Positions 7,159 to 33,097 of a stretch of DNA of 33,561 bases are shown here, piece by piece (the stretch's first letter is position 1; every line of letters starts with the position of its first letter). The stretch lies in the IMG/VR virus record IMGVR_UViG_3300033149_001893, positions 1 through 33,561 of that record; one strand, 5' to 3'. Under the pieces are notes generated by a model. The model was not told the origin of the DNA, ran no database searches, and saw nothing but the letters and a program-made list of their open reading frames with translations. The stretch comes from a virus. The position numbers were made by a program, and so were the translations under genes.

Positions 7159-8055
7159 ATGGGCTACCAGACTGCAACACTCGGCGACCTTGAGCACGCA
7201 CAGCGTATCGTGGTCGCTCAGTGTGAATACGAAGCCGAACACAATGCTCCTTGTATCCACCTAATCCAGCGATACAAACTGGGTAAGGGTGAAAAATCAA
7301 TCACCGTGCCAAAGGTGGGGCAGGTAACTGCCTCCGACCTGACCGATGGCGTTGATATGGTAGATGAGCAGGACGTCGGGATGAGCTATGTCAGCCTCAC
7401 GCCGAGTGAGGTCGGCTTGAAGTTTATCTTGACCGACAAGCTTGTTCGCCAGTTCAACGAGGATGTGTTTAGGGTAATCGGCCAACAGATGGGTGACGCT
7501 ATGGCAAGGAAGCGGGACGAGGATGTAATCGCCCTGTTCTCTGCGCTTAACGGCGGAACCACCCTCGGCGCCGACGACCTGAACCTGTCATTCTCGCTTC
7601 TATCCAAGTGCGCTGGTGTGGCGACGGCAAAGAAATACCGCAATCCCATTTTTATCGTTCATCACCCCAATGCCCTATCTATTGCCGCAATGGGCAGAGC
7701 AGGCATTTACAACAACGATATGAATGTGACAATGGGCTTTGGCGGACTAACCGAGGATGCCCGCAACGCCCTGCGCCAGTTCTTCAAGATGGAAGTGAAC
7801 GGTATCGGTTGCTATCAGGATGGTAACATTGACAAGATTTCTGGTTCTGATAGTGGCTACGGTGCGATTTTCTCCAAGTCCGCAATGGCTATGGTTGAGT
7901 CACTGGCACCGACAACCGAGCGAGAGAGGGATGCGTCCCTCCGTGCTTGGGAGATTAATATGGTGTCCGACTATGGTATGTTCGAGATTTGGGATACACA
8001 GGGAGCACCAATGCGATACGAAATACTCGACCTGTTAACCACGTCAACCAAGTAG
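7159..8055 (+). CDS. Major capsid protein (HK97 fold)
   Basis: 298 residues, with an AAAGGAGTG site before the ATG. It follows a scaffold-like gene and a portal and precedes a decoration-like gene. The sequence has the capsid pattern: an N-terminal arm, then LTPSEVGLKFILTDKLVRQF and the helix VFRVIGQQMGDAMARKRDED (spine-helix-like), a central segment with FIVHHPNALSIAAMGR, and a C-terminal beta-rich P-domain strand (MVSDYGMFEIWDTQGAPMRY). This matches HK97-fold capsid proteins of the short type without a protease domain. The family call is from resemblance and gene order. Confidence 0.82.
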   Translation: MGYQTATLGDLEHAQRIVVAQCEYEAEHNAPCIHLIQRYKLGKGEKSITVPKVGQVTASDLTDGVDMVDEQDVGMSYVSLTPSEVGLKFILTDKLVRQFNEDVFRVIGQQMGDAMARKRDEDVIALFSALNGGTTLGADDLNLSFSLLSKCAGVATAKKYRNPIFIVHHPNALSIAAMGRAGIYNNDMNVTMGFGGLTEDARNALRQFFKMEVNGIGCYQDGNIDKISGSDSGYGAIFSKSAMAMVESLAPTTERERDASLRAWEINMVSDYGMFEIWDTQGAPMRYEILDLLTTSTK

Positions 8056-9284: not shown

Positions 9285-9755
9285 ATGAAAGTCTTAATTC
9301 GTGATGCACATAGAGGGGATTTGCCGCTAATGATGAGTTGGCGGTCAAATCCCCTTTTGTATTTAGGCTTCTACTCCCAGCAAAATCCCCTCACTTGGGA
9401 AGAGCACACCGATTGGTTTTCCCACCGCAACAAAGACTGGCGAACTTTTATCGTTTTGGTTCAGGTGGACACAAGTTTGCGGGAAGTCGGTGTTGTCACA
9501 ATAGGGCAACTGGACAGCTGGTCGCCCGAAATCGGGTATTATATAGGTGAATTATCTCTGTGGGGCAAGGGTGTGGGCAAGAAAGCGGTAGAACTTGCTA
9601 TGGATTGGTTGCGGGCGAGGGATTACAAATATGTGCATACCACAGTCTTGAAAGACAATACTCGGTCTATTGGGCTACTCAAGGCTTGTGGTTTTAAGTA
9701 TGCCTGCGAAGCAAGGAAGGGTGAGGAAAGGTGGGAGAGGGAACTATATGGCTGA
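9285..9755 (+). CDS. GNAT N-acetyltransferase, PseH-like
   Basis: 156 residues, a complete single GNAT domain. Visible motifs are the N-terminal IRDAHRGDLPLMMSWRSNP, the PseH/RimJ-type TWEEHTDWF at 37-45, the acetyl-CoA loop WGKGVGKKA (93-101), and the end motif NTRSIGLLKACGFK (125-138). PseH and LegH acetylate the 4-amino group of a UDP-linked amino sugar in nonulosonic acid synthesis, and the dehydratase and aminotransferase that would make that substrate are in the same cassette. GNATs are broad, so the specific role comes from context. It is the first gene after promoter copy B and overlaps the next gene by 8 bases. Confidence 0.75.
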   Translation: MKVLIRDAHRGDLPLMMSWRSNPLLYLGFYSQQNPLTWEEHTDWFSHRNKDWRTFIVLVQVDTSLREVGVVTIGQLDSWSPEIGYYIGELSLWGKGVGKKAVELAMDWLRARDYKYVHTTVLKDNTRSIGLLKACGFKYACEARKGEERWERELYG

Positions 9756-10341
9756 AATTCAAGAACTTATTATTGATGACAGGGCTACCCAAGGGCGCTT
9801 GAATAAGGCGGTTGAAAATTATCTTGCTCTAAAGGAGGATGTGGAAAAAATTAGGCCGACGCAACCCCGTGAACTTTGGAGTGTATCCCGAACCCAAAAG
9901 GCGCTTATGGACTCACTTAAGAACGCAAGGTGTCGTATATGGTGGGAAATACCCTTGGGGTGTGAGGGGGGGCTAATCATTACCGATAAGTACAAAATAA
10001 AGCAAGAGTATAACGGAGATGAGCCACAAATAATTAAATGCGAAACCCCAGAGGCAAAAGTAGGAGTATGGGGGCGTAGCAAAAAGAAGGGAGGTAAAAA
10101 TAAGGTGGCGAAATTTATCACAAACACATTCTGGCTGGCGATGGTTACTTCGGGGGCGTTCTTCACGCTAAAATTGCTTGGTTTCTTGACTTGGAATTGG
10201 GGGCAAGTATTTATCCCGCTGTATATCTGGGGTGGGCTTGCCTTGCTTGGCGTGGTGCTAGGGGCTTCCTTGGTAGGCATTGTTATTAAAACGCTAGGGG
10301 GTAGCAAAGATGCTAAACGAATTAAGGCAAAGGGTAAGTGA
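9748..10341 (+). CDS. Hypothetical membrane protein
   Basis: 197 residues from ATG 9748, chosen over an upstream TTG (9670) because GGGAGAGGGAA stands before it. Residues 1-110 are soluble and charged. Two membrane segments lie in the last third (near 132-150 and 158-182), followed by a Lys-rich tail (SKDAKRIKAKGK). A second ribosome site (GGGAGG at about 10090) precedes an in-frame GTG near 10105, so a shorter two-segment product is possible. No family recognised. Confidence 0.55.
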   Translation: MAEIQELIIDDRATQGRLNKAVENYLALKEDVEKIRPTQPRELWSVSRTQKALMDSLKNARCRIWWEIPLGCEGGLIITDKYKIKQEYNGDEPQIIKCETPEAKVGVWGRSKKKGGKNKVAKFITNTFWLAMVTSGAFFTLKLLGFLTWNWGQVFIPLYIWGGLALLGVVLGASLVGIVIKTLGGSKDAKRIKAKGK

Positions 10342-10495
10342 ATTTGTTGATGACATTAAATCTGATGGTGTCATTAGATCTGATGTGGATGCCCTAAGGG
10401 ACAAACTGGATGAAATTCTAGGAGATGAAAAAATGAAGCTAGTTATTGTGGCGATTGCGGTTTACATTGTTTACCGTATGCTAAAAAGGAGATAG
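10310..10495 (+). CDS. Small membrane-anchored protein
   Basis: 61 residues, overlapping the upstream gene by 32 bases. Residues 1-40 form an acidic amphipathic helix (SDVDALRDKLDEILGDEKMK). Residues 42-57 are a membrane segment (LVIVAIAVYIVYRML) ending in KRR, so it is probably a single-pass protein. No family recognised. Confidence 0.5.
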   Translation: MLNELRQRVSEFVDDIKSDGVIRSDVDALRDKLDEILGDEKMKLVIVAIAVYIVYRMLKRR

Positions 10496-10545
10496 CAACG
10501 GTGGGAGCGAAGGTTATAATTCAAATCCCGTGATGCGAGGGAATT

Positions 10546-11391
10546 TTGGGTAAAGAAAAAACTATAATCTTATTGGGCACGGGGTTCAGCTGTCGTTTCT
10601 GCGACTTTCAAAAAGATGCTGAAATCTACGGGGTCAATGGGGCTTACCGCATAATTGATATGATGCCAGAAAAGCTCAAGAAGCACTTCCGTATAGACAA
10701 GCTGTTTATGACTGATTATATGTGGAGTCCAGAGGGACGGATGTGCTTTGACGTTGATGATATGAACGAGCAGATAGCCAAATACGGCGGGACAATGTTC
10801 AGTATGCACGAATTGAGGCTCGGCAAGCACAGGCTGAACGCCAGGCGCTACCCCTACCACCAGATAGTAAAGCACTTCAGCGGGCTTGGCTACGAGAAGG
10901 GTGGCGAGGGGGCGGACTACTTTACCGACACCATAACCTATATGATAGCCTACGCCCTCTACAAGAACACCTACCTTGCCCAGAACGAACAGGGTGTTGT
11001 CAGGTTGGAGCTGAGCAGACCGTTGAAGTTCAGGCTGTTCGGCGTTGATATGTGCACCACCGTTGAGTATCAGGTATCAAAGGGCGGTGTTGAGTGGTGG
11101 CTTGGTATCGCAAGGGGTTTGGGTTGTGATATTGAGGTTTCCTACGGCTCGGCAATTCTGGCTAATCCGAGGGGTATGCCCTACGGGTGGAGAAAGAAGA
11201 TGGATTTGAGTCAAGTTGACCCCTACAACGTGCTGGGCAAAAGGAAGCCACCCCAGAAGAAGAAGTCATTGAATTTAGCCACTGGTTCGGAAAAGATACA
11301 GGCGATTATGGCAAGGTCGGCGCAGGAGGGGGCATACAAGGATGAGGCCGAGGGTGGAGAGGGTGTGATGCCCTTACATAGCACAAGATAA
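10546..11391 (+). CDS. Conserved phage Rossmann-like protein, possible glycosyltransferase
   Basis: 281 residues from TTG with GAGGGAA just upstream. The start ILLGTGFSCRFC is a nucleotide-binding-like loop. The centre has YFTDTITYMIAYAL, followed by RLFGVDMCTTVEY and a helix GVEWWLGIARGLGCDIEV. This order (GxGxS loop, then a TxSITxMxALA-like helix, then GVDM plus EY) recurs in a phage family of unknown function that resembles DUF115/sialyltransferase-type folds. It overlaps the first NeuB gene by one base, so it could act on the activated sugar made here. That is inference. The C-terminal 60 residues are basic and probably disordered. Confidence 0.5.
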   Translation: MGKEKTIILLGTGFSCRFCDFQKDAEIYGVNGAYRIIDMMPEKLKKHFRIDKLFMTDYMWSPEGRMCFDVDDMNEQIAKYGGTMFSMHELRLGKHRLNARRYPYHQIVKHFSGLGYEKGGEGADYFTDTITYMIAYALYKNTYLAQNEQGVVRLELSRPLKFRLFGVDMCTTVEYQVSKGGVEWWLGIARGLGCDIEVSYGSAILANPRGMPYGWRKKMDLSQVDPYNVLGKRKPPQKKKSLNLATGSEKIQAIMARSAQEGAYKDEAEGGEGVMPLHSTR

Positions 11392-12473
11392 TGTGGATAA
11401 GAAATAAAGAAATCACGCAGGATAAATTATTCATTATCTCGGAAGTCGGCAACCAATTCGGCGGTTCGGTGGAAAAAGCCAAGCGCCTTATTGATGTAAC
11501 CAAAGAGGCTGGGGCGGATGCGGTCAAGTTCATATTCTGGTTTCCCGACGAGATACTTGCTGATAAAAGCATAATCTACGAATACGAAACCAACTTCGTT
11601 CACCCCAACTACCCGAACACCAAGCCCGTTAAAACGAAGGTAGCCGAGCTGATGTTTGGATTGCTGGACAAGCTGAGGCTGACGGATGGTGAGTGGCGGG
11701 AAGTTCGGGATTATGCGCTGAACAAAGATGTGATATTTATGTCTACAATAATCTCTCCTGGCGGGATAGACCTTGAGAACTTCATTTTAATGGATGCAAT
11801 CAAGATTAGCTCGTGGGACTACAACTTTCCCGACCTGTGGCGGTGGATAGCGTGGCAGGGCAAGCCGATGCTGATAGACCTCGGCCCAGCCGACGAGGAA
11901 CTGCTGGCTAAAAATCTGTCTATCCTGAAGAGCGAATACAACACGAACTATGCCCTGCTACACTGCTTCCACACTCAGAATTATAACGAGATGAATATGC
12001 TGACCATACCCTATTTAAGGGAAAAGTTCAAGTGCCCTGTGGGGTATAGCTCAATAGACTACAACGATGAAACGGACATTATGGCGGTGGCGCTGGGGGC
12101 TTGTATCCTTGAAAAGAGATTAACACTGGACAGGAAGGGCGGTATTCTCCACGACAGCATCAGCAAAGAGCCAGACGAGTTCAAGGCTTATGTGGAGAAG
12201 ATGCGCCAGTGTAAGGAAGCGATGGGTAAAATGGGCGTGTTCCCCAGCCCAAACGACATTGAGCAAAGCAAAAAGTGGTTTCGGCGCATAGTCGCCGATG
12301 TAGATATAAGGAAAGGCGAAACGATAACTAGAGATATGCTGGAGGCAAAGCGTGGCAGAACAGGAATTGAGCCAGAACGCATCTGGGAGTTCGTTGGTCG
12401 GAGAGCCAGCCAAAATATCCCCAGAAACACAACCCTCACTGAAGAAATGGCAAGAGCTGAAGCTGACAATTGA
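11391..12473 (+). CDS. NeuB-family protein with SAF domain, degenerate active site
   Basis: 360 residues: a TIM-barrel NeuB domain (about 10-285) and a C-terminal SAF (antifreeze-like) domain (about 298-353), the full NeuB layout. NeuB enzymes condense phosphoenolpyruvate with an amino-hexose to make a nonulosonic acid. Kept here are ISEVG (Glu18), AVK (Lys46), LLHC (189-192) and the SAF-domain Arg region KRGRTGIEP (320-328). Changed are NHxG to NQFGG, KxQ to KFIF, YPTP absent, SDHT to SSIDY (220-224) and EKHF to EKRL (241-244). The last two normally supply both metal-binding histidines. Self-sufficient catalysis is therefore doubtful. It may be a partner for the second NeuB (16389-17063) or have a changed reaction. 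Confidence 0.85.
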   Translation: MWIRNKEITQDKLFIISEVGNQFGGSVEKAKRLIDVTKEAGADAVKFIFWFPDEILADKSIIYEYETNFVHPNYPNTKPVKTKVAELMFGLLDKLRLTDGEWREVRDYALNKDVIFMSTIISPGGIDLENFILMDAIKISSWDYNFPDLWRWIAWQGKPMLIDLGPADEELLAKNLSILKSEYNTNYALLHCFHTQNYNEMNMLTIPYLREKFKCPVGYSSIDYNDETDIMAVALGACILEKRLTLDRKGGILHDSISKEPDEFKAYVEKMRQCKEAMGKMGVFPSPNDIEQSKKWFRRIVADVDIRKGETITRDMLEAKRGRTGIEPERIWEFVGRRASQNIPRNTTLTEEMARAEADN

Positions 12474-13191
12474 GACGAAGGGTAAGCCCGACTGCTTCAT
12501 ACCCGCCAGAAAGAACAGCAAGAGGTTGAAGCATAAGAACAAGCAAGTGCTCTGTGGCAAGCCGTTGGTTCAGTGGGCGATTGATACTGCCCTTGAAGCG
12601 CAGATATTCGGCAAGATAATTGTTTCTTCCGATGATGAGGAAATCGTGGAGATGGCTTATGACAGCAGGGTGAAGCCGATGGAACTCTATCACAAATATG
12701 GGCTGGTCATACCTCACTACCGCCCGAAGTCGCTAGCCGAAGACAATATACAGATTAGACAATTGGTCAGGTATTTAATCTCCACCTATTCCTGTGGGCC
12801 GATATTCTGTGTGCTAACCCCCTGCAACCCGTTTAGAACAGCCCAAGACATAAGGGAGTGCTACGACCTGATATTCAAGAAGAAAGCCAACTATGTGATG
12901 AGTGTTAAGCGAGCCTCACCTCCTCCTCAGTGGGCTTGTAGGATAGAGAACAAGTTCCTTGAGATGTGGCAGGGGCACAGGGACTTGAAAAGGGCGCAGG
13001 AGCTAGAACCCCTATACTACCACGATGGTGGGGTAATCTTTGCGGTTACCGAGGCGTTTTTGCACGAATTTGACAAGGACTTTCACGGCACGAGGTGCTA
13101 CCCCTACTTTATGAAGCACAGCCTTGATATAGATACCAAAGAGGATTTAATGTTGGCTGAAGTAATAATGGCGAGAATAGGCGATGGATAG
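12352..13191 (+). CDS. CMP-nonulosonic acid synthetase (NeuA/PseF/LegF-like)
   Basis: 279 residues. It activates a nonulosonic acid with CTP to the CMP-sugar used by transferases. The nucleotide-binding motif CFIPARKNSKRLKHKN is at 48-63, followed by CGKPLVQWAI (68-77), IIVSSDDEEI (89-98), and near the C-terminus SLDIDTKEDLMLAE, which carries the Asp residues of the metal site. The GTG start has GGAGG 6 bases upstream, inside the NeuB gene, giving a 122-base overlap. It adds about 45 residues ahead of the normal family start, and these look unstructured. No in-frame ATG exists before the motif. Sugar specificity cannot be read from sequence. Confidence 0.88.
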   Translation: MAEQELSQNASGSSLVGEPAKISPETQPSLKKWQELKLTIETKGKPDCFIPARKNSKRLKHKNKQVLCGKPLVQWAIDTALEAQIFGKIIVSSDDEEIVEMAYDSRVKPMELYHKYGLVIPHYRPKSLAEDNIQIRQLVRYLISTYSCGPIFCVLTPCNPFRTAQDIRECYDLIFKKKANYVMSVKRASPPPQWACRIENKFLEMWQGHRDLKRAQELEPLYYHDGGVIFAVTEAFLHEFDKDFHGTRCYPYFMKHSLDIDTKEDLMLAEVIMARIGDG

Positions 13192-13534
13192 CAAGGTAAG
13201 AAGCTGGACTAAGTCAATAGTGTGGAGGCTGATAGGCGTATTCATACTCGGCGCTATCGTTTGGCTGTTCACACACAGCTGGGCGGAAACAACGCTTATC
13301 ACGATAGTATTCCACGCCATCAGAACCGTTCTCTACTACTTCCACGAACGGGTGTGGATGAAGATAAGCTGGGGCAGAAACGACATTATGCCCATCGAGC
13401 TGGGGTTGCTGTTCTTGAATAAGCTGACATCGGTAAACCCGAAATCTATGGCGGAATATTATAGCATACCCGAAAGCGAAGCAAGGGCTTGGATAGACCA
13501 AGCGAAGGAGTTGGCAGATGAACTTTCTGACTAA
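13184..13534 (+). CDS. DUF2061 membrane protein
   Basis: 116 residues, ATG overlapping the synthetase stop by 8 bases. The first 65 residues match the DUF2061 pattern: basic start RSWTKSIVWR, two membrane segments (about 16-31 and 38-52) and the signature YYFHERVWMKISWG. The rest is a soluble helical tail (IPESEARAWIDQAKEL). In bacteria DUF2061 is often next to or fused with sulfate-assimilation genes, and here the next gene is a CysH-type reductase. The molecular function of the family is unknown. Confidence 0.8.
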   Translation: MDSKVRSWTKSIVWRLIGVFILGAIVWLFTHSWAETTLITIVFHAIRTVLYYFHERVWMKISWGRNDIMPIELGLLFLNKLTSVNPKSMAEYYSIPESEARAWIDQAKELADELSD

Positions 13535-14180
13535 AGTGGACAAGGCAAAGGAACTCATTGAGCAAACACTTAAAACTTACAAGAGGGTGGCGGTGGCGTG
13601 TAGCTTCGGCAAGGACAGTATGGTCGTGCTTCACCTGTGCCTTGAGGTAAACCCCAGATTTCAGGTTTTTTCCATTATGACACCCTTCAAGTTCCGTGAA
13701 ACCTACCTCTACAAAGCCAAGATGGAGGCACTGTGGAGACTCAATATCAAGACCTACTGTGAAAACAAGATACCCGATGAATTCTACGACCTCTATCTTA
13801 CCAACCCCGATGCCTGCTGTAACCGATACAAGGTTGAGCAGACCAAGAAAGCAATCAAGGAACTCAATCTTGACGCTTGGATTACTGGGCTTCGCAGGAC
13901 AGAGGGCAGAACCCGAACCAACTATGACTTCGTAGAGGAGAAGGGCGGGCTAATAAAGGTAAACCCGATACTTGATTTTACCGAGTTAGACGTATGGAGG
14001 TATATAGCGGTTAACGAAATCCCGATAAACCCCTTATACGGACAGGGATACAGAAGTCTGGGCTGTGAGCCGTGCAGCCACAAGGAGAAGGATGAAAACG
14101 AAACCGAAAGAGAAGGCAGGTGGCAGGGGACTTCAAAGTGTGGGGGGGAGTGCGGAATTCACACTCAATTATTGCGCTAG
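13518..14180 (+). CDS. cysH: APS/PAPS reductase (CysH family)
   Basis: 220 residues. It reduces adenylyl sulfate or its 3'-phospho form to sulfite. The PP-loop is SFGKDSMVVLH (29-39). CC at 100-101 and GCEPC at 182-186 give the CC-x~80-CxxC pattern that holds a 4Fe-4S cluster in APS-type reductases. GLRRTEGRTR (124-133) and EREGRW (197-202) are conserved, and ECGIH (211-215) holds the catalytic Cys. All key residues appear intact. It overlaps the DUF2061 gene by 17 bases and the next gene by 89. Why it lies in a sugar cassette is unclear: it could support host sulfur metabolism or a modification. A DNA-phosphorothioation role seems less likely because no other dnd-like gene is seen. Confidence 0.82.
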   Translation: MNFLTKVDKAKELIEQTLKTYKRVAVACSFGKDSMVVLHLCLEVNPRFQVFSIMTPFKFRETYLYKAKMEALWRLNIKTYCENKIPDEFYDLYLTNPDACCNRYKVEQTKKAIKELNLDAWITGLRRTEGRTRTNYDFVEEKGGLIKVNPILDFTELDVWRYIAVNEIPINPLYGQGYRSLGCEPCSHKEKDENETEREGRWQGTSKCGGECGIHTQLLR

Positions 14181-15255
14181 GTGCTGTCAGCCAGATACCC
14201 GCCCGAAGATAGTTTTCAAAGACGGGGTGTGTGGGGCTTGCCTCTGGGAAGACGAGAAGGAGCGGATAGACTGGAAGGGGCGCAGGATAGCCCTGCATAT
14301 GCTTGCCCACAAAGCAAAAGAGAAAGCCGAAAAGAGAGGAACATACGACTGCGCCATTGGAGTATCTGGTGGCAAGGACAGCACCTTTCAAGCCCTGTAT
14401 GCCAAAGAAGAACTGGGCTTGAACTGCTTGCTGGTAAGCGTTGCGCCTGATTTACTGACCGACATCGGCAGGCATAACTTTGAGAACCTTGTCAATCAGG
14501 GCTTTGATTGCATCAGAATATATGTTAATCCGCAACTCCTGAAGCAACTGATGAGGCGGGACTTCCTCAAATACTGCCACTTCAGGAAGGCAACCGAGTA
14601 TCCTTTGTGGGCAAGCGTCTATCGGGTAGCCAGGGAGAAGAACATACCATTGATTATTCAGGGGGAGAACGCAGCGCTGACATTGGGTGTTTCCGAGGAT
14701 ATGAATACCGATTGGGATGCCGCCACCATCTACAAGACAAACACTCTCGCTGGGGCTACTGCGGGTGAGCATTACCCTGAAATTGACCCCGCCTATTTAC
14801 AACTATACATGTTCCCCGACCTATCTGATTGGGACGGCAAGGCTATCTGGCTGAATTACTTTCTGGAGGAATGGTCGCCGAGGCACAATGCGATGTTCGC
14901 TTTCAACCGAGGCTTGAAATTCAGGCAGGACAACCCCGAAGAGTTGGGCAGGATACACCCGTGGACTTGCCTTGATAGCGACTTCCATATCGTCAGCCAG
15001 ATGCACAAGTATTACAAATACGGCTTCGGGTTTGCTACCGATGAGGTTTGCTATGATATACGAGAAGGATGGCTGACAAGGGAACAAGGCTTTGAACTTA
15101 TAAAGAAATATGATGGGAAGTGTGCCCACAAGTATATCCAGAAATTCTGCGATTATATCGGTATAACCGAGAAGGAACACTGGCAAACAGTGGAGAAATT
15201 CAAGAGATACGACCCCTATGGGAGATGGGGAAATCAAACGGGAGGTGTGCTGTGA
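14092..15255 (+). CDS. N-acetyl sugar amidotransferase (PseA/WbpG-like)
   Basis: 387 residues from ATG with AAGGAGAAGG upstream. A GTG nine codons earlier is less likely. A zinc-binding set YCARC and VCGAC (Cys28, 31, 47, 50) and the IDW motif are followed by the ATP-pyrophosphatase loop VSGGKDST (91-98), as in the PseA/WbpG/LegA-type family, which turns an N-acetyl group on a sugar into an acetamidino group. Residues further on (QGENAALTLG, HPWTCLDSD) fit the same family. Known members need ammonia from HisH/HisF-like partners, and none is seen here. In this cassette it probably modifies the nonulosonic acid or a precursor. The N-terminal ~25 residues before the zinc motif are extra. Confidence 0.8.
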   Translation: MKTKPKEKAGGRGLQSVGGSAEFTLNYCARCCQPDTRPKIVFKDGVCGACLWEDEKERIDWKGRRIALHMLAHKAKEKAEKRGTYDCAIGVSGGKDSTFQALYAKEELGLNCLLVSVAPDLLTDIGRHNFENLVNQGFDCIRIYVNPQLLKQLMRRDFLKYCHFRKATEYPLWASVYRVAREKNIPLIIQGENAALTLGVSEDMNTDWDAATIYKTNTLAGATAGEHYPEIDPAYLQLYMFPDLSDWDGKAIWLNYFLEEWSPRHNAMFAFNRGLKFRQDNPEELGRIHPWTCLDSDFHIVSQMHKYYKYGFGFATDEVCYDIREGWLTREQGFELIKKYDGKCAHKYIQKFCDYIGITEKEHWQTVEKFKRYDPYGRWGNQTGGVL

Positions 15256-15389
15256 CAAGTGCGTTCAAGCTGGCGCTAAAAATGTTCGGGGCGATACTGG
15301 CAGTCATTGTGCTGGCGGTATTGGTAGTTCCAACGCTGGGACACAGTGGTAATTGGCTTCAGAAACCGCTTGAGTTCATTATGAGATGA
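15252..15389 (+). CDS. Small single-pass membrane protein
   Basis: 45 residues from GTG with GGAGG 6 bases upstream, overlapping the amidotransferase stop by 4 bases and the dehydratase start by 4. One strong membrane segment (MFGAILAVIVLAVLVVPTLG) is preceded by a short basic start and followed by a short tail. No family recognised. The tight coupling on both sides supports it as a real gene. Confidence 0.6.
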   Translation: MTSAFKLALKMFGAILAVIVLAVLVVPTLGHSGNWLQKPLEFIMR

Positions 15390-16210
15390 AGAACAAAACT
15401 ATTCTCATTACTGGTGGGGCAGGCTCGCTTGGGCAATCTCTAGCCGAAAAGCTCCGTGAATATGAGCCGAAGTCAATCCGCATCCTAGACCACAGCGAAT
15501 ACTTCCAGTATGAAATGGTAGAGCACTTCAAGAACTACGAAGTATACCGCTTTCTAGTGGGGGATATACGGGACTTGCGGAGACTCAAGCGTGCCTTTGA
15601 GGGTGTGGATATTGTGATACACGCCGCCGCCCTCAAGCACGTTCACCTGTGCGAGTATAATCCGATAGAGGCAATACGAACAAACGTGGAGGGTTCGGTC
15701 AATGTAGCTGACGCCGCCTTAGATTGCGGGGTTGAGAAGGTTCTCGGAATATCCAGCGACAAGGCGGTTCACCCTATCAACATCTACGGTGCTTCAAAAC
15801 TCACTATGGAGAAATTGTTTACCCACTCCAATGTCTACGGCAAGACCAAGTTTAGCTGTGTCAGGTTCGGTAACTTTGGGGGCAAGGGCAGCTTCCCCGA
15901 AAGGATTAAGAAGTGTGCCGAAACAGGTGAGCCGATAGAGTTGACCAACAGGTTTATGGTGCGCTACTGGATACCAATAATTGATGCCGTGGAGTTCTCC
16001 ATAAGGTGCGTTGAGATGATGCAGGGTGGCGAGATATTCGTGCCCAAGATGGAAGAGAAACACATCGGCAGAATGATAAAAGAGCTTGCGCCCAATGCTG
16101 AAGTCAAGATGGTGGGTTCGCGGGTTGGCGAAAAGGTGGTTGAGAAATTGTGGGTTGCAGGCTACGAGAAAGCCGAGGACAAGGGGGACTATTGGGTAAT
16201 AGGAGCCTAA
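15386..16210 (+). CDS. UDP-N-acetylglucosamine 4,6-dehydratase-like (PseB/LegB)
   Basis: 274 residues, short-chain dehydrogenase/reductase fold. It would convert a UDP-N-acetylhexosamine to the 4-keto-6-deoxy sugar, the first step to pseudaminic/legionaminic-type sugars. Visible are the NAD(P) loop TGGAGSLG (9-16), the PseB/CapD-type AALKHVHLCEYNPIEAIRTN (81-100), the catalytic SSDKA (123-127) in place of the usual TDKA, the YGASK motif (Tyr134, Lys138), and FGNFGGKGS (about 162-170). Length and motifs fit PseB-like soluble enzymes rather than the long membrane-bound CapD type. Whether it also epimerises at C5 cannot be told. The ATG overlaps the previous stop. Confidence 0.82.
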   Translation: MKNKTILITGGAGSLGQSLAEKLREYEPKSIRILDHSEYFQYEMVEHFKNYEVYRFLVGDIRDLRRLKRAFEGVDIVIHAAALKHVHLCEYNPIEAIRTNVEGSVNVADAALDCGVEKVLGISSDKAVHPINIYGASKLTMEKLFTHSNVYGKTKFSCVRFGNFGGKGSFPERIKKCAETGEPIELTNRFMVRYWIPIIDAVEFSIRCVEMMQGGEIFVPKMEEKHIGRMIKELAPNAEVKMVGSRVGEKVVEKLWVAGYEKAEDKGDYWVIGA

Positions 16211-16212
16211 CA

Positions 16213-16401
16213 ATGAAATGCGATAGATGTGGCAAGAAACTAACACTGGGGCATCTGACGCTGGCCCATTTTTACCCCAAGTTTTTCCCCAACCCTCCGC
16301 CAATTGTTCGTGGGGACAAGCATTGGGTTGTTTGGAACAAGGATGGGGATTGGGTTTATTGCTCCAAGAAATGCGCAAAGGCAGACGGATGGCGATTATA
16401 A
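16213..16401 (+). CDS. Small Cys-rich zinc-binding-like protein
   Basis: 62 residues, ATG two bases after the dehydratase stop, with GGAGCC as a modest ribosome site. KCDRCGKKL at the start and YCSKKCAKAD near the end give four Cys (CxxC and CxxxC), a treble-clef or zinc-ribbon pattern. The middle is aromatic and Pro-rich (FYPKFFPNPPP). It overlaps the second NeuB gene by 13 bases. Function unknown. Confidence 0.6.
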   Translation: MKCDRCGKKLTLGHLTLAHFYPKFFPNPPPIVRGDKHWVVWNKDGDWVYCSKKCAKADGWRL

Positions 16402-17063
16402 TAGCTGAAATCGGGCAAAACCACTGCGGGGACATCGGGCTTGCGAGGAAACTGATACTCCTTGCCAAGAATAACAGGGCTACATATTGTAAATTTCAGC
16501 TCTACGACCACAATATGTTGTATGGGGACACTGATATACCAAACGTAGAGCTGTCTAAAGAGCAGGCATTTGAACTATTCAACTTCGGCAAGGACAACGG
16601 CATTGAGGTGTTCTTCTCCGTGTTTGATGTGGAGAGGGTGAAGTGGTGTGAGGAAATGGGAGTTAAGAGATATAAGGTAGCTTGCGATAAACACACAAAC
16701 ACAAATTTAATGGGGGCGCTACGGGATACGGGTAAAATGATTTACATTTCAAGTAGTTGCTATTATGTGCCCTGGGATTTCAGCAAAGCAATGGTTTTAT
16801 ACTGTGTTCCCCGTTATCCCACCCCCCCAGATATACTTGAACTGGACTATGGCCTCAACTGGGAGGCAGGGTGGGCACAGGGTTTCTCCGACCACACCAT
16901 AGGGTTAGACTGCGCCAAGATAGCAATAGCAAGGGGCGCACAGATTATAGAAAAACATTTTGCCATAGACCACAAGACGGGCATAGACGCAAGGTGGAGT
17001 ATGGCACCAAGGGAACTTCGTGAATTGAGGCGCTGGGCTGATGTGTGTAAGGAGGTATTATGA
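16389..17063 (+). CDS. Short NeuB-family synthase lacking the SAF domain
   Basis: 224 residues from ATG 16389. An upstream in-frame start exists, but that stretch is the out-of-frame shadow of the zinc gene. It is only the NeuB barrel; the usual C-terminal SAF domain is absent and no room is left for it. It keeps the active-site motifs: IAEIGQNHCGD (Glu7, His12), CKFQ (34-37), YPTP (143-146), FSDHT (His169) and EKHF (His190), so both metal-binding histidines are present. The usual family length is about 330-360. It lies in the cassette between a zinc-like gene and the aminotransferase, and overlaps the next gene by ATGA. It may depend on the SAF domain of the 11391-12473 product. Confidence 0.85.
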   Translation: MAIIIAEIGQNHCGDIGLARKLILLAKNNRATYCKFQLYDHNMLYGDTDIPNVELSKEQAFELFNFGKDNGIEVFFSVFDVERVKWCEEMGVKRYKVACDKHTNTNLMGALRDTGKMIYISSSCYYVPWDFSKAMVLYCVPRYPTPPDILELDYGLNWEAGWAQGFSDHTIGLDCAKIAIARGAQIIEKHFAIDHKTGIDARWSMAPRELRELRRWADVCKEVL

Positions 17064-17263
17064 AGTATTACCCTATACAGTGCCCCAGTTGCACCTATTG
17101 GCGGGGGGAGTGCCAACGTGATAACCCTCGTGTTGTTAGGCTCGTTCAGGGGCTTTATGGCGACCACAAGAAGGGGCTGGGTGAAATTAGGCGACGGGTT
17201 AAGGACACAGATGGGAAAATCAAAGAGGTAGAGATTTGCCCCGACTTTGAGCAAAAGATATGA
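17060..17263 (+). CDS. Small Cys-containing hypothetical protein
   Basis: 67 residues, ATG overlapping the NeuB stop with AAGGAGGT upstream. It has CPSC at 8-11, Cys18 and Cys60 (EICPDFE), a possible metal-binding set. The rest is basic and helical (GLGEIRRRVKDTDGK). It is coupled to both the short NeuB gene and the aminotransferase (4-base overlaps), suggesting a shared role, but it matches no family I know. Confidence 0.55.
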   Translation: MKYYPIQCPSCTYWRGECQRDNPRVVRLVQGLYGDHKKGLGEIRRRVKDTDGKIKEVEICPDFEQKI

Positions 17264-18387
17264 TTGCCAAAGAGGAAATCAGAGCTGTAACCGAAGTATT
17301 GCGTTCTGGGATGCTGAGTGGCTTCCGAGCCAAGCCCGATTACTTCAAGGGTGGCAAGGCGATAAACGAGTTTGAGGAACGCTTTGCCGAATACATCGGC
17401 TCAAAGCACGCCGTGACATTCAACTCGGCTACCTCTGCGCTACATACAGCCCTGCTCAGTTGCGATATTAGACCAAGTGACAGGGTTTTAGTCCCCTGCT
17501 ATACATTCAGTGCTTCGGCGTCCTGTATTTTGATGTGCGGCGCAGAACCCGTGTTCTGTGATATTGACCCCCTCTCCTTCAATATGCACATTGATATACC
17601 CCGCATACAAAGCCTTGACCCCCTTCCCAAAGCTGCAATTATTGTTCACCTTCAGGGGCACCCAGCGCATAAGGCGCTGATAAGGGCGAAGGGTATTTTC
17701 TTGGGCAAGTGGGCAAGCAGAAAGAATATAAAGATAATTGAAGACGCCTCGCAATCAATCGGTGCATCTTATCTTGGTAAGAACACTGGCACTTGGGGCG
17801 ACTGCGGGGTATTCTCCTTCAATCAGTTCAAGCACATAAACTGCGGTGAGGGCGGAATGCTTGTAACTGACAATGACGACATAGCGCACAAGGCAAGGCT
17901 GATACGAAACCACGCTGAAAACTTTACTGATATGCTGGGCTACAACTATCGTATGACCGAAGTAACGGCGGCAATCGGGATAGAGCAGTTAAAGAAGCTC
18001 CCCGATGAACTATATCGGCGCAGGTGCATTGCGCTGAAACTCAACCACGAACTGGACAAGATAGATGGATTAACGCCCCCTATCGTCTACCCCGATTGCT
18101 CGCACTCTTGGTATACCTATGCGGTGAAATACAATAATCCTTTTATGACGAGGGAGAAATTCCAGGCCGAGATGGACAAGAATGGTATCTACTTCGGGGG
18201 TAAATATGTAACCCCGCTTCACCTTCTGCCCCTATTCCAGCAGTATGCGCCTGAAGGCGGTTGCCCCGTAGCAGAACGAATGTGGAAGACCGAACTCATC
18301 GTTACTGATTTCAAGAAGTGGTCTTATAACCCTGACAGGGTAGCGGGCACAGTTAGGAAAGTTCTAGGGGTTGACAACCCCTTGTGA
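17260..18387 (+). CDS. DegT/DnrJ/EryC1-type PLP aminotransferase (PseC/LegC-like)
   Basis: 375 residues, full length for the family. It would transfer an amino group to the 4-keto sugar made by the PseB-like enzyme. Motifs are NSATSALHTALL (55-66, phosphate-binding), VPCYTFSASAS (78-88), IIEDASQSIGA (159-169), and FSFNQFKHINCGEGG with the PLP-binding Lys191. The C-terminal HSWYTYAV and the Pro-rich ending also fit. It is the last biosynthetic gene of the cassette. A sigma70-like promoter starts within its final codons. Substrate choice is inferred from neighbours. Confidence 0.88.
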   Translation: MIAKEEIRAVTEVLRSGMLSGFRAKPDYFKGGKAINEFEERFAEYIGSKHAVTFNSATSALHTALLSCDIRPSDRVLVPCYTFSASASCILMCGAEPVFCDIDPLSFNMHIDIPRIQSLDPLPKAAIIVHLQGHPAHKALIRAKGIFLGKWASRKNIKIIEDASQSIGASYLGKNTGTWGDCGVFSFNQFKHINCGEGGMLVTDNDDIAHKARLIRNHAENFTDMLGYNYRMTEVTAAIGIEQLKKLPDELYRRRCIALKLNHELDKIDGLTPPIVYPDCSHSWYTYAVKYNNPFMTREKFQAEMDKNGIYFGGKYVTPLHLLPLFQQYAPEGGCPVAERMWKTELIVTDFKKWSYNPDRVAGTVRKVLGVDNPL

Positions 18388-26071: not shown

Positions 26072-26215
26072 ATGACGGAAAGTTCACCTATATGTTTCCA
26101 TTTGACTTCTACGTTGCAATACACAAATAAGGGCGAAGCAGATTGGGTAGCCCGCAAGATATATGCAGGTTGCTACGACGAAGTGCTGGAAATAATCAAC
26201 GCCCCAGAGGATTAA
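26072..26215 (+). CDS. Small hypothetical protein
   Basis: 47 residues from ATG 26072, ending 2 bases before the tailspike start. The second half is well formed (KGEADWVARKIYAGCYDEVL). The ribosome site is weak. A second frame starting at ATG 26056 gives 24 residues and stops at 26130. The two could be joined by a frameshift, but the 47-residue frame needs none. Function unknown. Confidence 0.45.
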   Translation: MTESSPICFHLTSTLQYTNKGEADWVARKIYAGCYDEVLEIINAPED

Positions 26216-26217
26216 AG

Positions 26218-27675
26218 ATGGGAAGGATACACCACAACCAAACCAGACTGGTTACACGCTGTGAGCAGGACGATTGGGAGTCTACCTCAATCCACAGGGA
26301 CAGCCAAGACAACATACTGGAACTCAGCCGAAGCGCAACCCTAGTCGTGGCAGCCAATGATAGTCCTGCAAAAAGCAAGGCTGGGGCGGATTATGTCTGT
26401 GATGGCACCGCTGATGATGTAGAGATACAGGCAGCGATTGATGCTCTTTCGGGTAATGCTGGTAGTATAATGCTCTTAGAGGGCACCTTTAATATAAGCA
26501 CCACATTAGACCTAAACAACACCCCCGTAAAATTGTGTGGGCAGGGAATAAATAGAACAATTCTTCAGCTTGCTAATTCAGCCAACACTAAATTACTCGT
26601 AGATAACGATGCCATTACGGGTGTTGAGATATGCGGAATTGATTTTAACGGCAACGGGGCTAACCAAAGTGATGCGGCGAGTAGGGCGGAAAGAAACCTT
26701 GTTGAGTTTGACTACAAAACAGACTCCCAAATCCACCACTGTCGGTTTCGTAATACTAGACACGGTGGCGCCCTAAGTTTTCAGTATGGTGCAAGGGTGA
26801 ATATCCACCATAATCATTTTGTGAACAACAATGTATCAGGTGTTCATAACTGTGACCACCTCTTTACGGGCATAAACAACAATATTATTATACAATCCAA
26901 CCACTTTGACACCTGCACTGATGTTGCGATTGCATCTGATAACAACCGAGAGGTTGTTATATCTAATAATGTAATTGATGGTTGTGCTAGGGGCAGTATA
27001 AGCCACTGGAACGCCGATGATGACTTACAAACTCCTACTCGCTCTATAATTCAGGGCAACTGGATACGGGGAGATTGCCTCTACGGTATTATTATAGGCA
27101 GAGCTTCTGGAGAATCTAAGGTTGCCGAGAGGGTTATCGTCACGGGTAATTACATTGAGGCTCATACTACAGCGGGGAATGTAGGCATTGATTGGCGTGA
27201 CGGAGCCTATAATGGTGTAATTACGGGGAATTTTATTTATGCTGATACGGGTTGTATCGGTATCTATATTGCGGGGAGCACACTCTTTGTTACAGATAAT
27301 CTATTTAGCGGTGCTGGCGATGGCATTGAGACCATAGCAGGCTCAGACTATGTTTATGTGTTTGATAACTACTTTCAGGGCGGAACCATAGTAGAAACTG
27401 TTGCACCTAGTAATAAGAAATATCGTGGCAATCTAGGCTACACCACAGAAAACTCAGGCACGGCTACACTTGCTAATGGGAATACTTCTATAGCAGTAAA
27501 TCACGGGCTTGATGTAATCCCCGCTGCGGGGGATATTGTGGTAACACCAATTGAAGCTTGGGGCGCTATGACTCAGTTTTATATTGATACCTATACCTCA
27601 ACGCAATTCACAATTCACGCCGACCAAGACCCAGGGCAGGATGTTGATTTTGCTTGGAAGGCAATAGTGTTGTAA
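26218..27675 (+). CDS. Tailspike-like protein with parallel beta-helix
   Basis: 485 residues from ATG 26218; the upstream in-frame start is less likely. The motif DYVCDGTADDVEIQAAIDAL (about 60-79) marks the start of a pectate-lyase-like parallel beta-helix. Right-handed helix rungs follow (HHCRFRNT, IHHNHFVNNN, IQSNHFDTC, VISNNVIDGC, ITGNFIYAD), to about 420. A short C-terminal beta domain (residues 425-485) may be for trimer formation or binding. Such proteins bind or cut surface polysaccharides and set host range. No catalytic residues can be assigned with certainty. Confidence 0.8.
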   Translation: MGRIHHNQTRLVTRCEQDDWESTSIHRDSQDNILELSRSATLVVAANDSPAKSKAGADYVCDGTADDVEIQAAIDALSGNAGSIMLLEGTFNISTTLDLNNTPVKLCGQGINRTILQLANSANTKLLVDNDAITGVEICGIDFNGNGANQSDAASRAERNLVEFDYKTDSQIHHCRFRNTRHGGALSFQYGARVNIHHNHFVNNNVSGVHNCDHLFTGINNNIIIQSNHFDTCTDVAIASDNNREVVISNNVIDGCARGSISHWNADDDLQTPTRSIIQGNWIRGDCLYGIIIGRASGESKVAERVIVTGNYIEAHTTAGNVGIDWRDGAYNGVITGNFIYADTGCIGIYIAGSTLFVTDNLFSGAGDGIETIAGSDYVYVFDNYFQGGTIVETVAPSNKKYRGNLGYTTENSGTATLANGNTSIAVNHGLDVIPAAGDIVVTPIEAWGAMTQFYIDTYTSTQFTIHADQDPGQDVDFAWKAIVL

Positions 27676-27715
27676 TTCTACAAATAGTAGAGATGGCAGA
27701 TTAGAATAATCGGTG

Positions 27716-27724
27716 TGATAGAAT
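27716..27724 (+). promoter_or_regulatory. Extended -10 promoter-like element (copy E)
   Basis: TGA-TAGAAT in the 67-base gap between the tailspike and LamG genes fits TGnTANAAT. Upstream sequence has no clear -35. It may start a transcript for the LamG and small membrane genes. Weaker than the other copies. Confidence 0.35.
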
Positions 27725-27742
27725 TATATTAGGAGCAACTTT

Positions 27743-28387
27743 ATGGATGATGTCATTCGGGATAGCTACCTCGTATTAGATTTACCACTGTATCTATTAG
27801 ATGGGCAGGAGTTCCAGTCTAAGGATGCTTATGGGCACCCGTGCACAGTCACCGATGCAGTATGGAGACCCAGTGGGCGCTACTTTAACAATACCCCTAG
27901 TTTTATTACTGTCCCGCATAGTGCTGAGTTGAAAACCGCCAATGGCACGCTTGAAGCATTTGTCAAGCCAGATTCTATTACTTCCTCTTACGGCTTTATG
28001 AGCAACGAACTGGGTGCCGCTGGTGCAGGAGATTTTTACCTTGGCTTTGATGGCACAGCTATCCCCTACTTCGGGTTTATGATTGATGATGGGGCAGAAC
28101 ACACACTTGCGTCAAGTAGCAAACCTAGTGCTGGCCAATGGTATCACGTTGCCGCCACCTTTGGGGCGGAAGGAATGAAATTATATATTGACGGAAGACC
28201 CGATACCACGGATGCCTCTATAACCCAAGGCACAGAGGGCAATTCTCAGAGCATCCTAATCGGCTCAAGGCGAACTGACAAGTGGGGATTTGATGGTTTA
28301 ATCGGCGAAGCCCGAATATACTCTCGTGCCCTCACCCCGCAGGAGATACAACACAACTACCTTGCAACTCGCTGGAGATACCGATGA
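27743..28387 (+). CDS. LamG/concanavalin-like tail protein
   Basis: 214 residues with TTAGGAGCAA before the ATG. It is a single jelly-roll of the LamG/concanavalin A-like lectin type: SFITVPHSAELKTANGTLEAF, then AGQWYHVAATFGAEGMKLYI and DGLIGEARIYSRALTPQEI, which is the classic LamG_3 ending. It is complete in one domain with a short N-terminal arm (about 45 residues) that may attach it to the tail. It probably binds a glycan. Confidence 0.8.
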   Translation: MDDVIRDSYLVLDLPLYLLDGQEFQSKDAYGHPCTVTDAVWRPSGRYFNNTPSFITVPHSAELKTANGTLEAFVKPDSITSSYGFMSNELGAAGAGDFYLGFDGTAIPYFGFMIDDGAEHTLASSSKPSAGQWYHVAATFGAEGMKLYIDGRPDTTDASITQGTEGNSQSILIGSRRTDKWGFDGLIGEARIYSRALTPQEIQHNYLATRWRYR

Positions 28388-30340: not shown

Positions 30341-30625
30341 CTAACAATTATGCGCAGTTCTATTTCTTTCGCTTGCTTCTCTGATACTCGCCTTATAATT
30401 TCTTCGGTGGATTATGTTATTATTCTCGTCTAATACCAACTCGTTGTGTATCATATACCCCACGGGTTCAAAGGCAAGCCTTTCAATGTTCCCCGCCACC
30501 ATCGGGGGAAAATAGGGCACACAGACAATTCGGGCTTCGGGATATTTCTCAAACTCTCGCCTCGCAACTTCCCTTGCGTGTTTGCGTGCCTTTCTATATG
30601 TTTCTTCCCAAACTTGTCTCATCAT
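30341..30625 (-). CDS. Small hypothetical protein
   Basis: 94 residues, ATG overlapping the upstream stop (ATGATG). The first 30 residues are a basic amphipathic helix (ETYRKARKHAREVARREF). Then comes a hydrophobic beta region (RIVCVPYFPPMVAGN) and a basic end (RRNYKASIREASERNR). No family recognised. Confidence 0.5.
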   Translation of the reverse strand: MMRQVWEETYRKARKHAREVARREFEKYPEARIVCVPYFPPMVAGNIERLAFEPVGYMIHNELVLDENNNIIHRRNYKASIREASERNRTAHNC

Positions 30626-30888
30626 ATTTTAAACTTCGCCTTCACCAACTCTAGTAGTTCATCAATGTCCCGCAAATCCTCATCGTGCCTGTTTATCGCT
30701 GATATGTAGAAGCGGTAGATTGGATTGTGAACATCGTTCTCCATCAGCCAATTTATCTTCTCTTGCATATCCTTGATGTCTTTCACGTGGCGCTGTCTTT
30801 CGTCCATCAGGAAGGCACGATATGCCTGCGCTTCCCTCGTGTCCATTGAGTCTAGGATAACTTTGTGCGTTTCTTCATTGAATTCCAT
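30622..30888 (-). CDS. Small helical hypothetical protein
   Basis: 88 residues from ATG 30888; a TTG at 30903 would add 5. It is strongly charged and helical (AFLMDERQRHVKDIKDMQEK), with a central NPIYRFYISAINRHDEDLRD motif typical of small coiled-coil proteins. The start overlaps the SemiSWEET-like gene by 37 bases. Unknown function. Confidence 0.5.
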   Translation of the reverse strand: MEFNEETHKVILDSMDTREAQAYRAFLMDERQRHVKDIKDMQEKINWLMENDVHNPIYRFYISAINRHDEDLRDIDELLELVKAKFKI

Positions 30889-31130
30889 AACAACAACCCC
30901 CAAATTACTGCGTTAGTAGTAAGGTTAATTGATTGCGCCCAGATAAATACAATTGCGTGAATATGAATGGCGTGGATAAGATAGCATATAAGGCAACAAA
31001 CAAGCAGGGTGTAAGTGCCAAGAGAAACATCCTCCAAGCGTTTAGTCTTAAATATCTTGTATAACTGCGGTAGGGGAACGCAGACGCCAAAGCCAAGTCC
31101 AATCCACCCCACAAGGTATCCCAAATCCAT
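30852..31130 (-). CDS. SemiSWEET/PQ-loop-like membrane protein
   Basis: 92 residues. Three membrane segments are visible: about 4-20, 40-60 and 67-84. The end of the first segment carries the PQ-loop signature PLPQLYKIFKTKRLEDVSLG (Pro21-Gln22), and the third has Asn69 and Asn73 where sugar-transport SemiSWEETs keep Asn. Bacterial SemiSWEETs are 3-helix half-transporters that dimerise to move small sugars. The length fits exactly. A transporter of this class in a phage is unusual. Sugar substrate and real transport are unproven. Confidence 0.7.
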   Translation of the reverse strand: MDLGYLVGWIGLGFGVCVPLPQLYKIFKTKRLEDVSLGTYTLLVCCLICYLIHAIHIHAIVFIWAQSINLTTNAVIWGLLLWNSMKKRTKLS

Positions 31131-31131
31131 T

Positions 31132-31317
31132 TCATTTAACCTTCAAGTCCTTTATTCTGTCGTCAATCGCCCGCCTCAACATAAACTCAAGGTAGGGGGT
31201 GAGGCTGTCGTGAACCCACTTAATCAATTCTTTGCGCTGGTCTATATCAATCATACTCATCCTTCCCTTCTGGTAGCCCTCTAGATAACTGATTGCGTCT
31301 GTTGTCCTGTGTTTCAT
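31132..31317 (-). CDS. Small hypothetical protein
   Basis: 61 residues, ending one base before the SemiSWEET-like start. It is helical and charged (QRKELIKWVHDSLTPYLEFM) with a basic end (DDRIKDLKVK). No recognised domain. It is part of a tightly packed minus-strand operon. Confidence 0.5.
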   Translation of the reverse strand: MKHRTTDAISYLEGYQKGRMSMIDIDQRKELIKWVHDSLTPYLEFMLRRAIDDRIKDLKVK

Positions 31318-32807: not shown

Positions 32808-33041
32808 TCATCTCCTTAAGAATAAGATATACCAACAAATCGCTGTCAGCGAAGTTGCAAAAGCCGCCAAATATAGTTGGAGTAAAATATAACAAGCCAC
32901 AAAGGCGGTCAATACAAGGGCGGTAGGCAGCGTAGTAGTAACTGGCATTTTGACCTTACGTTTGATAGAAAACACTAAACTCGGCGCAAAAATGAAGCCG
33001 CCCACCATAAACACTAGGTCGCAAATTGTATGTATCCCCAT
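32808..33041 (-). CDS. Small three-segment membrane protein
   Basis: 77 residues from ATG 33041 with AAGGAGATGAT upstream. Three membrane segments: about 5-24, 35-54 and 56-74, with a basic KRKVK loop after the first. A family of small phage/prophage membrane proteins looks similar, with unknown function. The stop lies just before the next GTG. Confidence 0.55.
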   Translation of the reverse strand: MGIHTICDLVFMVGGFIFAPSLVFSIKRKVKMPVTTTLPTALVLTAFVACYILLQLYLAAFATSLTAICWYILFLRR

Positions 33042-33097
33042 ATCATCTCCTTTAGCCGAAGCCACATAGCCCACAGAAACATCACGAACTGTTCCAT
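33014..33097 (-). CDS. Possible 27-residue hydrophobic peptide
   Basis: ATG overlaps the predicted stop of the neighbouring frameshifted gene (TAATG), and the peptide MEQFVMFLWAMWLRLKEMIW is hydrophobic and aromatic. It overlaps the next membrane-protein gene by 28 bases. Translational coupling is possible, but evidence is only the start context. Confidence 0.25.
   Translation of the reverse strand: MEQFVMFLWAMWLRLKEMIWGYIQFAT

Follow-up and report, generated by a model that had tools for sequence, protein, structure and literature searches.

The window analysed here is an entire virus record of 33,561 bases. An earlier note on this DNA had reported a 92-residue ORF at 30852-31130 and proposed that it encodes a SemiSWEET-like sugar transporter. 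The ORF is present, on the minus strand and with an ATG start, and the frames at the locus are the following:

30852..31130, minus strand: gene for a PQ-loop protein of the SemiSWEET half-transporter fold (hereafter the window PQ-loop gene); ATG start, 92 aa
31132..31317, minus strand: upstream small ORF of the same minus-strand gene run; 61 aa, no family
30622..30903, minus strand: downstream ORF overlapping the window PQ-loop gene; 93 aa, TTG start, no family above cut-off

The ATG of the window PQ-loop gene lies 1 nt past the stop codon of the upstream ORF, and an AAGG motif stands 9 nt 5' of it. The gene belongs to a tight minus-strand run of short genes, which includes a metallophosphoesterase and an HNH gene and is otherwise mostly made of genes lacking a family. 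An overlapping frame of 76 aa (30905-31135, minus strand), which starts 5 nt before the PQ-loop start at an ATGA formed with the upstream stop, is probably a shadow frame. A second small membrane protein, noticed by eye from its hydrophobic stretches, is encoded at 32808-33074 (minus strand). It has no Pfam family and no match among phage records, and its resemblance by eye to a second PQ-loop gene was rejected, as the PQ-loop profile gives it -0.3 bits.

Two further parts of the record deserve mention. The major capsid protein (7159-8055, plus strand) has distant kin (29-31%) in the Pelagibacter phages HTVC026P, 111P, 112P, and 202P, in phage DSL-LC06, and in Microcystis phage Mae-JY09. At 26143-28387 (plus strand), a right-handed beta-helix protein is followed by a laminin-G/concanavalin-like protein, and the two are likely to be a tail-spike or glycan-binding pair.

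After the capsid gene, the plus strand carries a cassette (9285-18387) with matches to PseH, PseI/NeuB (twice), PseF, WbuX, PseB, and PseC. The WbuX amidotransferase match passes its cut-off and those to the Pse proteins fall short of their equivalog cut-offs; from its sequence matches the cassette looks like a near-complete pseudaminic-acid-like (nonulosonic-acid) pathway. Inside it, at 13184-14180 (plus strand), we found a DUF2061 membrane protein and a phosphoadenylyl-sulfate (PAPS) reductase, the latter above the PRK02090 cut-off. The earlier note had considered a tie between the PQ-loop gene and this cassette, in which case the protein would move a sugar precursor or product of the pathway. 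The presence of PseB, PseC, PseH, PseI, PseF, and WbuX-like genes on the same record (9.3-18.4 kb) speaks for such a role. However, about 12 kb separate the cassette from the PQ-loop gene, which is on the opposite strand, and the annotated stretches inspected around four other phage PQ-loop genes show nothing of the kind. The pseudaminic-acid pathway begins with cytosolic UDP-GlcNAc and ends as a CMP-sugar, so that no sugar facilitator is needed. Hence, the tie finds no support in the data and a role in the cassette is very improbable.

Family and predicted fold

The window PQ-loop protein matches the Pfam PQ-loop family (PF04193) with 42.3 bits (E 6e-11), well above the cut-off of 22, the match spanning residues 3-56 and profile positions 1-54. 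It has the Pro-Gln pair in helix 1 (P21-Q22) by which the family is recognised, as part of the PLPQ motif at residues 19-22 that had been pointed out earlier. The earlier note had also called for a search against the MtN3/SWEET family, and there the outcome is different: Pfam MtN3_slv gives 17.2 bits, under its cut-off of 23.7. The NCBIfam SemiSWEET profiles are likewise matched below cut-off, SemiSWEET_2 with 38.2 bits (E 1e-9; cut-off 80) and SemiSWEET_1 with 16.7 bits (cut-off 200). There is a match to PHROG 25992, of unknown function (E 1e-4), and a sequence match to the solved SemiSWEET 4rng (E 1.6e-4), the other solved SemiSWEETs matching more weakly. Two profiles built without the window protein both detect it, the score being slightly higher with the cellular one (69 members, 52 bits) than with the viral one (48 members, 45 bits).

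The structure was modelled using an alignment of 52 rows (the window protein, 34 cellular and 17 viral sequences), which gave a pLDDT of 92.5 and a pTM of 0.77. The alignment helped the model, and its 34 cellular SemiSWEETs favour a SemiSWEET-like outcome; the model made from the single sequence is weaker (pLDDT 79.6, pTM 0.46) and has helices 2 and 3 merged. In line with the three membrane segments described in the earlier note, three transmembrane helices are predicted, the first of them broken at residue 18, right before the PQ. In a Foldseek search against the PDB, the best 12 rows consist entirely of crystal chains of SemiSWEETs (TMq 0.76-0.88, with 0.78 to 4rng_A and 0.88 to 4x5n_A). VIA-align superposes residues 2-92 of the model on residues 2-92 of the E. 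coli SemiSWEET (EcSemiSWEET) chain 4x5m_C (91 residues, 1.5 A, Z 13.2), and ranks next the eukaryotic SWEET repeats and the mitochondrial pyruvate carrier (Z about 8-10). Middling Z values are common among helical bundles in such comparisons; here the superposition is backed up by the sequence match and by the identical register. The predicted fold thus agrees with the SWEET three-helix bundle (Z 13.2 to EcSemiSWEET), the comparison on which the earlier proposal had been made to depend.

Since the numbering is the same as in EcSemiSWEET, Pro21, Gln22, Trp50, and Asn66 of the latter map onto P21, Q22, Y50, and Q66 of the window protein. The Lys/Arg-rich stretches at 25-31 and 86-90 would fit the SemiSWEET topology, with the N-terminus out and the C-terminus in. 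One may ask whether the ORF is a chance open frame with no real gene behind it, given that the overlapping 76-aa frame begins 5 nt upstream at ATGA. This is refuted by the family match (E 6e-11), and the register is the same as that of EcSemiSWEET along the full length; the probability of a chance frame is negligible. The window PQ-loop protein is a SemiSWEET-fold PQ-loop half-protein, and its residues do not justify the label "sugar transporter".

Pocket, gate, and hinge compared with cellular SemiSWEETs

According to the accessible part of the EcSemiSWEET study (PMC4309421), Pro21-Gln22 is the hinge of that protein, and Trp50, Asn66, and Thr15 surround the bound polyol. Sucrose uptake was down almost to the control level in P21A, lowered in N66A, kept in W50F, and raised in W50A. 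In AtSWEET1, transport was abolished by Y57A, G58D, and N73A (PMC5742349, accessible part), and the columns of Tyr53-Gly54 would be the counterpart of the outer gate of AtSWEET1 when matched by spacing.

We compared these columns with those of cellular loci collected with SemiSWEET-like peptide patterns, of which 69 of 73 were aligned (L050, L058, L061, and L070 were dropped as cut or broken). The codons concerned are:

31065..31070, minus strand: codons of Pro21-Gln22, the PQ hinge, kept; P21 and Q22 in 69/69 cellular relatives
31086..31088, minus strand: codon of Gly15, column of the pocket Thr15; Thr in 64/69 cellular relatives
30981..30983, minus strand: codon of Tyr50, column of the pocket Trp50; Trp in 69/69 cellular relatives
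30969..30974, minus strand: codons of His53-Ala54, columns of the outer-gate Tyr-Gly; Tyr-Gly in 69/69 cellular relatives
30933..30935, minus strand: codon of Gln66, column of the pocket Asn66; Asn in 69/69 cellular relatives

Ser36, Pro21, and Gln22 are common to the window protein and all 69 relatives. In contrast, Trp50, Tyr53, Gly54, and Asn66, invariant in the 69 cellular SemiSWEETs, are Tyr, His, Ala, and Gln in the window protein, and column 16, a Thr in 65 of them, is a Val. The "conserved-type Asn" that the earlier note saw in the third helix is not the conserved one: the pocket Asn is in column 66 (69/69), where the window protein has Gln, and its own Asn69 and Asn73 occupy columns that have Asn in none of the 69 relatives.

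Two controls address the choice of relatives. The first consists of 39 cellular loci picked by Pfam family alone, without any pocket or loop motif: 9 loci from 34 genomes (the phylum of an Aenigmarchaeota genome) and 30 of 40 rows from 61 genomes (the phylum of a Bacteroidetes genome). In these, Trp50 and Gly54 are each present in 38 loci and Tyr53 in 37 (His in the other 2), while column 66 is Asn in 36, Gln in 2, and a gap in 1. Even where a protein of this control has Gln66 or His53, as the window protein does, Trp50 is retained. The second control used a loop motif that is blind to helices 2 and 3 (PQ..K..KTK...D.S) on 891 genome rows from three phyla. The motif matched 13 rows, all 13 with Trp50, Tyr53, Gly54, and Asn66; two of the matching genomes were search centres known to have such a gene, and some loci are shared between the sets. 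Among the Aenigmarchaeota-phylum loci, L223 (1189-1467, minus strand) and L225 are half-size PQ-loop proteins with Gln66 and with Trp50 and Gly54 intact, and L223 has in addition His53, and Asp-Gln instead of Pro-Gln.

All four pocket and gate columns are changed in the window protein, a combination absent from the cellular and viral sets examined. Going by these residues, the window gene is a variant of the SemiSWEET fold with a combination of pocket and gate changes that is new among the sets examined here. The earlier identification as a SemiSWEET-like sugar transporter therefore holds in part: Pfam, the model, and the superposition agree with it on the fold, whereas the sugar transport is not supported, as the pocket and gate residues are replaced.

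PQ-loop half-proteins in viruses and the relatives of the window gene

The earlier note knew of few such phage genes. This impression was mistaken: a scan of IMG/VR with the same loop motif returned at least 119 loci, in which 116 frames are open, 114 match the PQ-loop profile, and 113 are long enough to be read. Counts in this set are not frequencies, owing to the selection by motif and to shared descent. Among the matches listed, Trp50 is found in 2 of the 113 copies (L164 and L186) and Tyr50 in another 2, Gly54 in 3 (L164, L186, and L190), Tyr53 in 109, and His53 in none. Removing near-copies leaves 63 of the copies listed, still with 2 Trp50 and 3 Gly54. The first 80 of the at least 119 loci give 78 open frames and 76 profile matches, and once near-copies and short ones are removed (n=43) there is no Trp50, no Gly54, and 41 Tyr53. 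At column 66, 31 of these 43 have Tyr and 7 have Asn, for the most part as an Asn-Tyr pair shifted by one column. Five further viral copies, which include those of named phages, also lack Trp50.

Half-size PQ-loop proteins are thus common in phages, and nearly all in our sample differ from the cellular ones in the residues of the pocket. The mostly missing Trp50 and Gly54 suggest that the role of the viral copies is a different or an altered one. The contig L186 is the only one with the full canonical set (Trp50, Tyr53, Gly54, and Asn66) among the 113 copies of the matches listed, and may be either a genuine SemiSWEET of a virus or host DNA filed in error. Another record, MT837855 (L003, "Bacteriophage sp."), was rejected as a phage since its ORFs look, by eye, chromosomal and bacterial (glycosyltransferases, a transporter, a sugar kinase, and a thioredoxin-reductase-like protein); its PQ-loop protein is labelled cellular in the tree and was left out of both residue counts. 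Viral PQ-loop genes had already been annotated in three phages of Bacillus-like hosts and in several giant viruses, and one myovirus record is titled "SemiSWEET, PQLC, membrane protein, sugar". We found no paper on viral PQ-loop proteins or on a phage-borne SemiSWEET in a literature search whose coverage excludes most subscription journals.

The window protein stands rather alone in these data. Its nearest sequences by phmmer are cellular SemiSWEETs (33-39% identity, 42.5 bits to L008), while its best viral pairwise score is 33.8 bits (L112). Close relatives were absent from 50,697 phage records at E 10; in IMG/VR, 9 and 12 stretches fitted peptide patterns in two scans with none confirmed, and in genome contigs, with the window protein alone as query, 65 matched and none was confirmed. 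A tree of 118 rows and 93 columns, with 30 open forks and viral rows from the first 80 loci only, parts viral from cellular rows with modest support (92/44 on the viral side). It does not place the window protein, which has a very long branch (2.45). The only related phage that a neighbouring gene brought up is L002/G001 (39 kb): against the 47 window ORFs compared it has one strong match, the metallophosphoesterase (55%), and two weak ones, and there is no PQ-loop gene in its 39 kb, which may be an incomplete sequence.

Proposed function and comparison with known systems

The explanation we favour, which we hold to be probable, is that the gene encodes a phage PQ-loop half-transporter with a recut pocket, passing a small polar metabolite that is not one of the usual sugars. 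Two copies of the 92-residue protein would form a homodimer in the host inner membrane, with a central path between them, and bending at Pro21 would open this path now to one side and now to the other, as happens in E. coli SemiSWEET. The phage copy retains the hinge and the predicted fold; its pocket is recut at three positions (Thr15 to Gly, Trp50 to Tyr, Asn66 to Gln) and its outer gate at two (Tyr53-Gly54 to His-Ala). A small polar solute would then pass down its gradient in the course of infection. With the hinge and fold kept and the pocket and gate rebuilt, a substrate other than the usual sugars is most likely; the protein probably moves a non-sugar small molecule, or sugars in a different manner, across the host membrane. 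The earlier note had offered a PQ-loop protein other than a sugar transporter as its alternative, and this is what fits the data best, with Trp50, Tyr53, Gly54, and Asn66 all replaced. Some points go against it. Taken one by one, the substitutions are mild (Trp to Tyr, Asn to Gln), the W50F mutant of EcSemiSWEET retained its sucrose uptake (PMC4309421, accessible part), and, as no close relative was found, there is no sign that selection maintains the gene.

These substitutions could also be read as the conservative changes of a true sugar transporter, a host-derived SemiSWEET by which the flux of sugar or the osmotic balance of the infected cell is altered. The sequences nearest by phmmer are cellular SemiSWEETs (L008, 42.5 bits), the W50F and W50A mutants kept or raised sucrose uptake (accessible part of PMC4309421), a Gln is still able to form hydrogen bonds, and Gln66 is present in 2 of the 39 cellular PQ-loop loci sampled by Pfam. 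Viruses can also carry a sugar-type SemiSWEET, if one goes by the canonical set in 1 of the 113 viral loci of the matches listed (L186). However, Trp50, Tyr53, Gly54, and Asn66 are changed together, each of them invariant in 69/69 relatives, and the MtN3_slv and SemiSWEET_2 scores (17.2 against 23.7 and 38.2 against 80) are below cut-off. We consider such a sugar transporter unlikely. A small membrane protein that does not transport at all, and that would block the host SemiSWEET by pairing with it, alter the membrane late in infection, or exclude other phages, would account for the loss of the sugar pocket while the fold is kept. It would also suit a place among short minus-strand genes mostly without known function, typical of accessory phage genes. 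Yet the Pro21-Gln22 hinge, Ser36, and the charged inner loop are kept and would be needless in a protein that does not move, which makes this reading quite unlikely.

If the window protein is, as we favour, a half-transporter with a recut pocket, one may wonder about the viral copies at large. It is possible, though doubtful, that phages hold a large and diverse class of PQ-loop half-transporters distinct from SemiSWEETs, in which the hinge is kept and the sugar pocket abandoned, and that the window protein was recut independently (His53, Gln66). Such a class would consist of virus-shaped transporters for a solute relevant to infection, e.g., a nucleoside, a nicotinamide compound, an amino acid, or an organic acid. 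If its members transport, phages carry a ready set of facilitators of about 90 residues that are easily expressed and assayed, and that would reveal the limits of change in a two-fold PQ-loop pocket and the solutes that phages want moved. As for annotation, phage PQ-loop genes should not be labelled "SemiSWEET sugar transporter" before the Trp/Asn pocket is checked.

Bacterial SemiSWEETs (EcSemiSWEET 4x5m/4x5n, 4rng, and 4qnc) agree with the window protein in length, residue numbering, and predicted fold, and likewise have three helices, the first of them with a break at the PQ. They differ from it in that its Trp50/Asn66/Thr15 pocket and Tyr53/Gly54 gate are replaced, and it scores below the SemiSWEET and MtN3 cut-offs. 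The "PQ loop repeat protein" of Geobacillus phage GR1, Bacillus phage vB_BcoS-136, and Sporosarcina phage Lietuvens is half-size like the window protein and, like it, lacks Trp50, Tyr53, Gly54, and Asn66, at 23-26% identity to it. The copies of GR1 and Lietuvens lie in a nucleotide-metabolism region, whereas the window gene has another context. In these two phages, the PQ-loop gene is adjacent or close to one for a nucleoside 2-deoxyribosyltransferase, and the region also encodes ribonucleotide reductase. The PQ-loop gene of vB_BcoS-136 has, at a distance of 3-4 kb, genes for a ribose-phosphate pyrophosphokinase and for a nicotinamide phosphoribosyltransferase. The 2-deoxyribosyltransferase neighbour of GR1 and Lietuvens gives a possible hint at a nucleoside-related solute. 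Neighbours were discarded as a functional clue for the viral loci in general: among 348 ORFs around 43 loci of the matches listed, no neighbour recurs at over 6 of the loci, and the single recurrent one with a metabolic look (4 of the 43 loci of the matches listed) is GDP-mannose-dehydratase-like by eye.

The viral half-proteins of IMG/VR are half-size, with PQ and loop motif kept (by selection of the set), as in the window protein, but 109 of 113 among the matches listed have Tyr53, unlike its His53, and they are not close kin. Phage PnuC nicotinamide riboside transporters appear as weak BFVD rows for the window model (E 2.5-3.7, not significant). The PnuC fold is related to that of SWEET, and cellular PnuC proteins are full-size. 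Finally, the mitochondrial pyruvate carrier (MPC1/MPC2) is absent from the sequence matches of the window protein but has the same three-helix half-transporter fold, with Z 8-9 to the window model, and works as a heterodimer (PMC12007569, accessible part).
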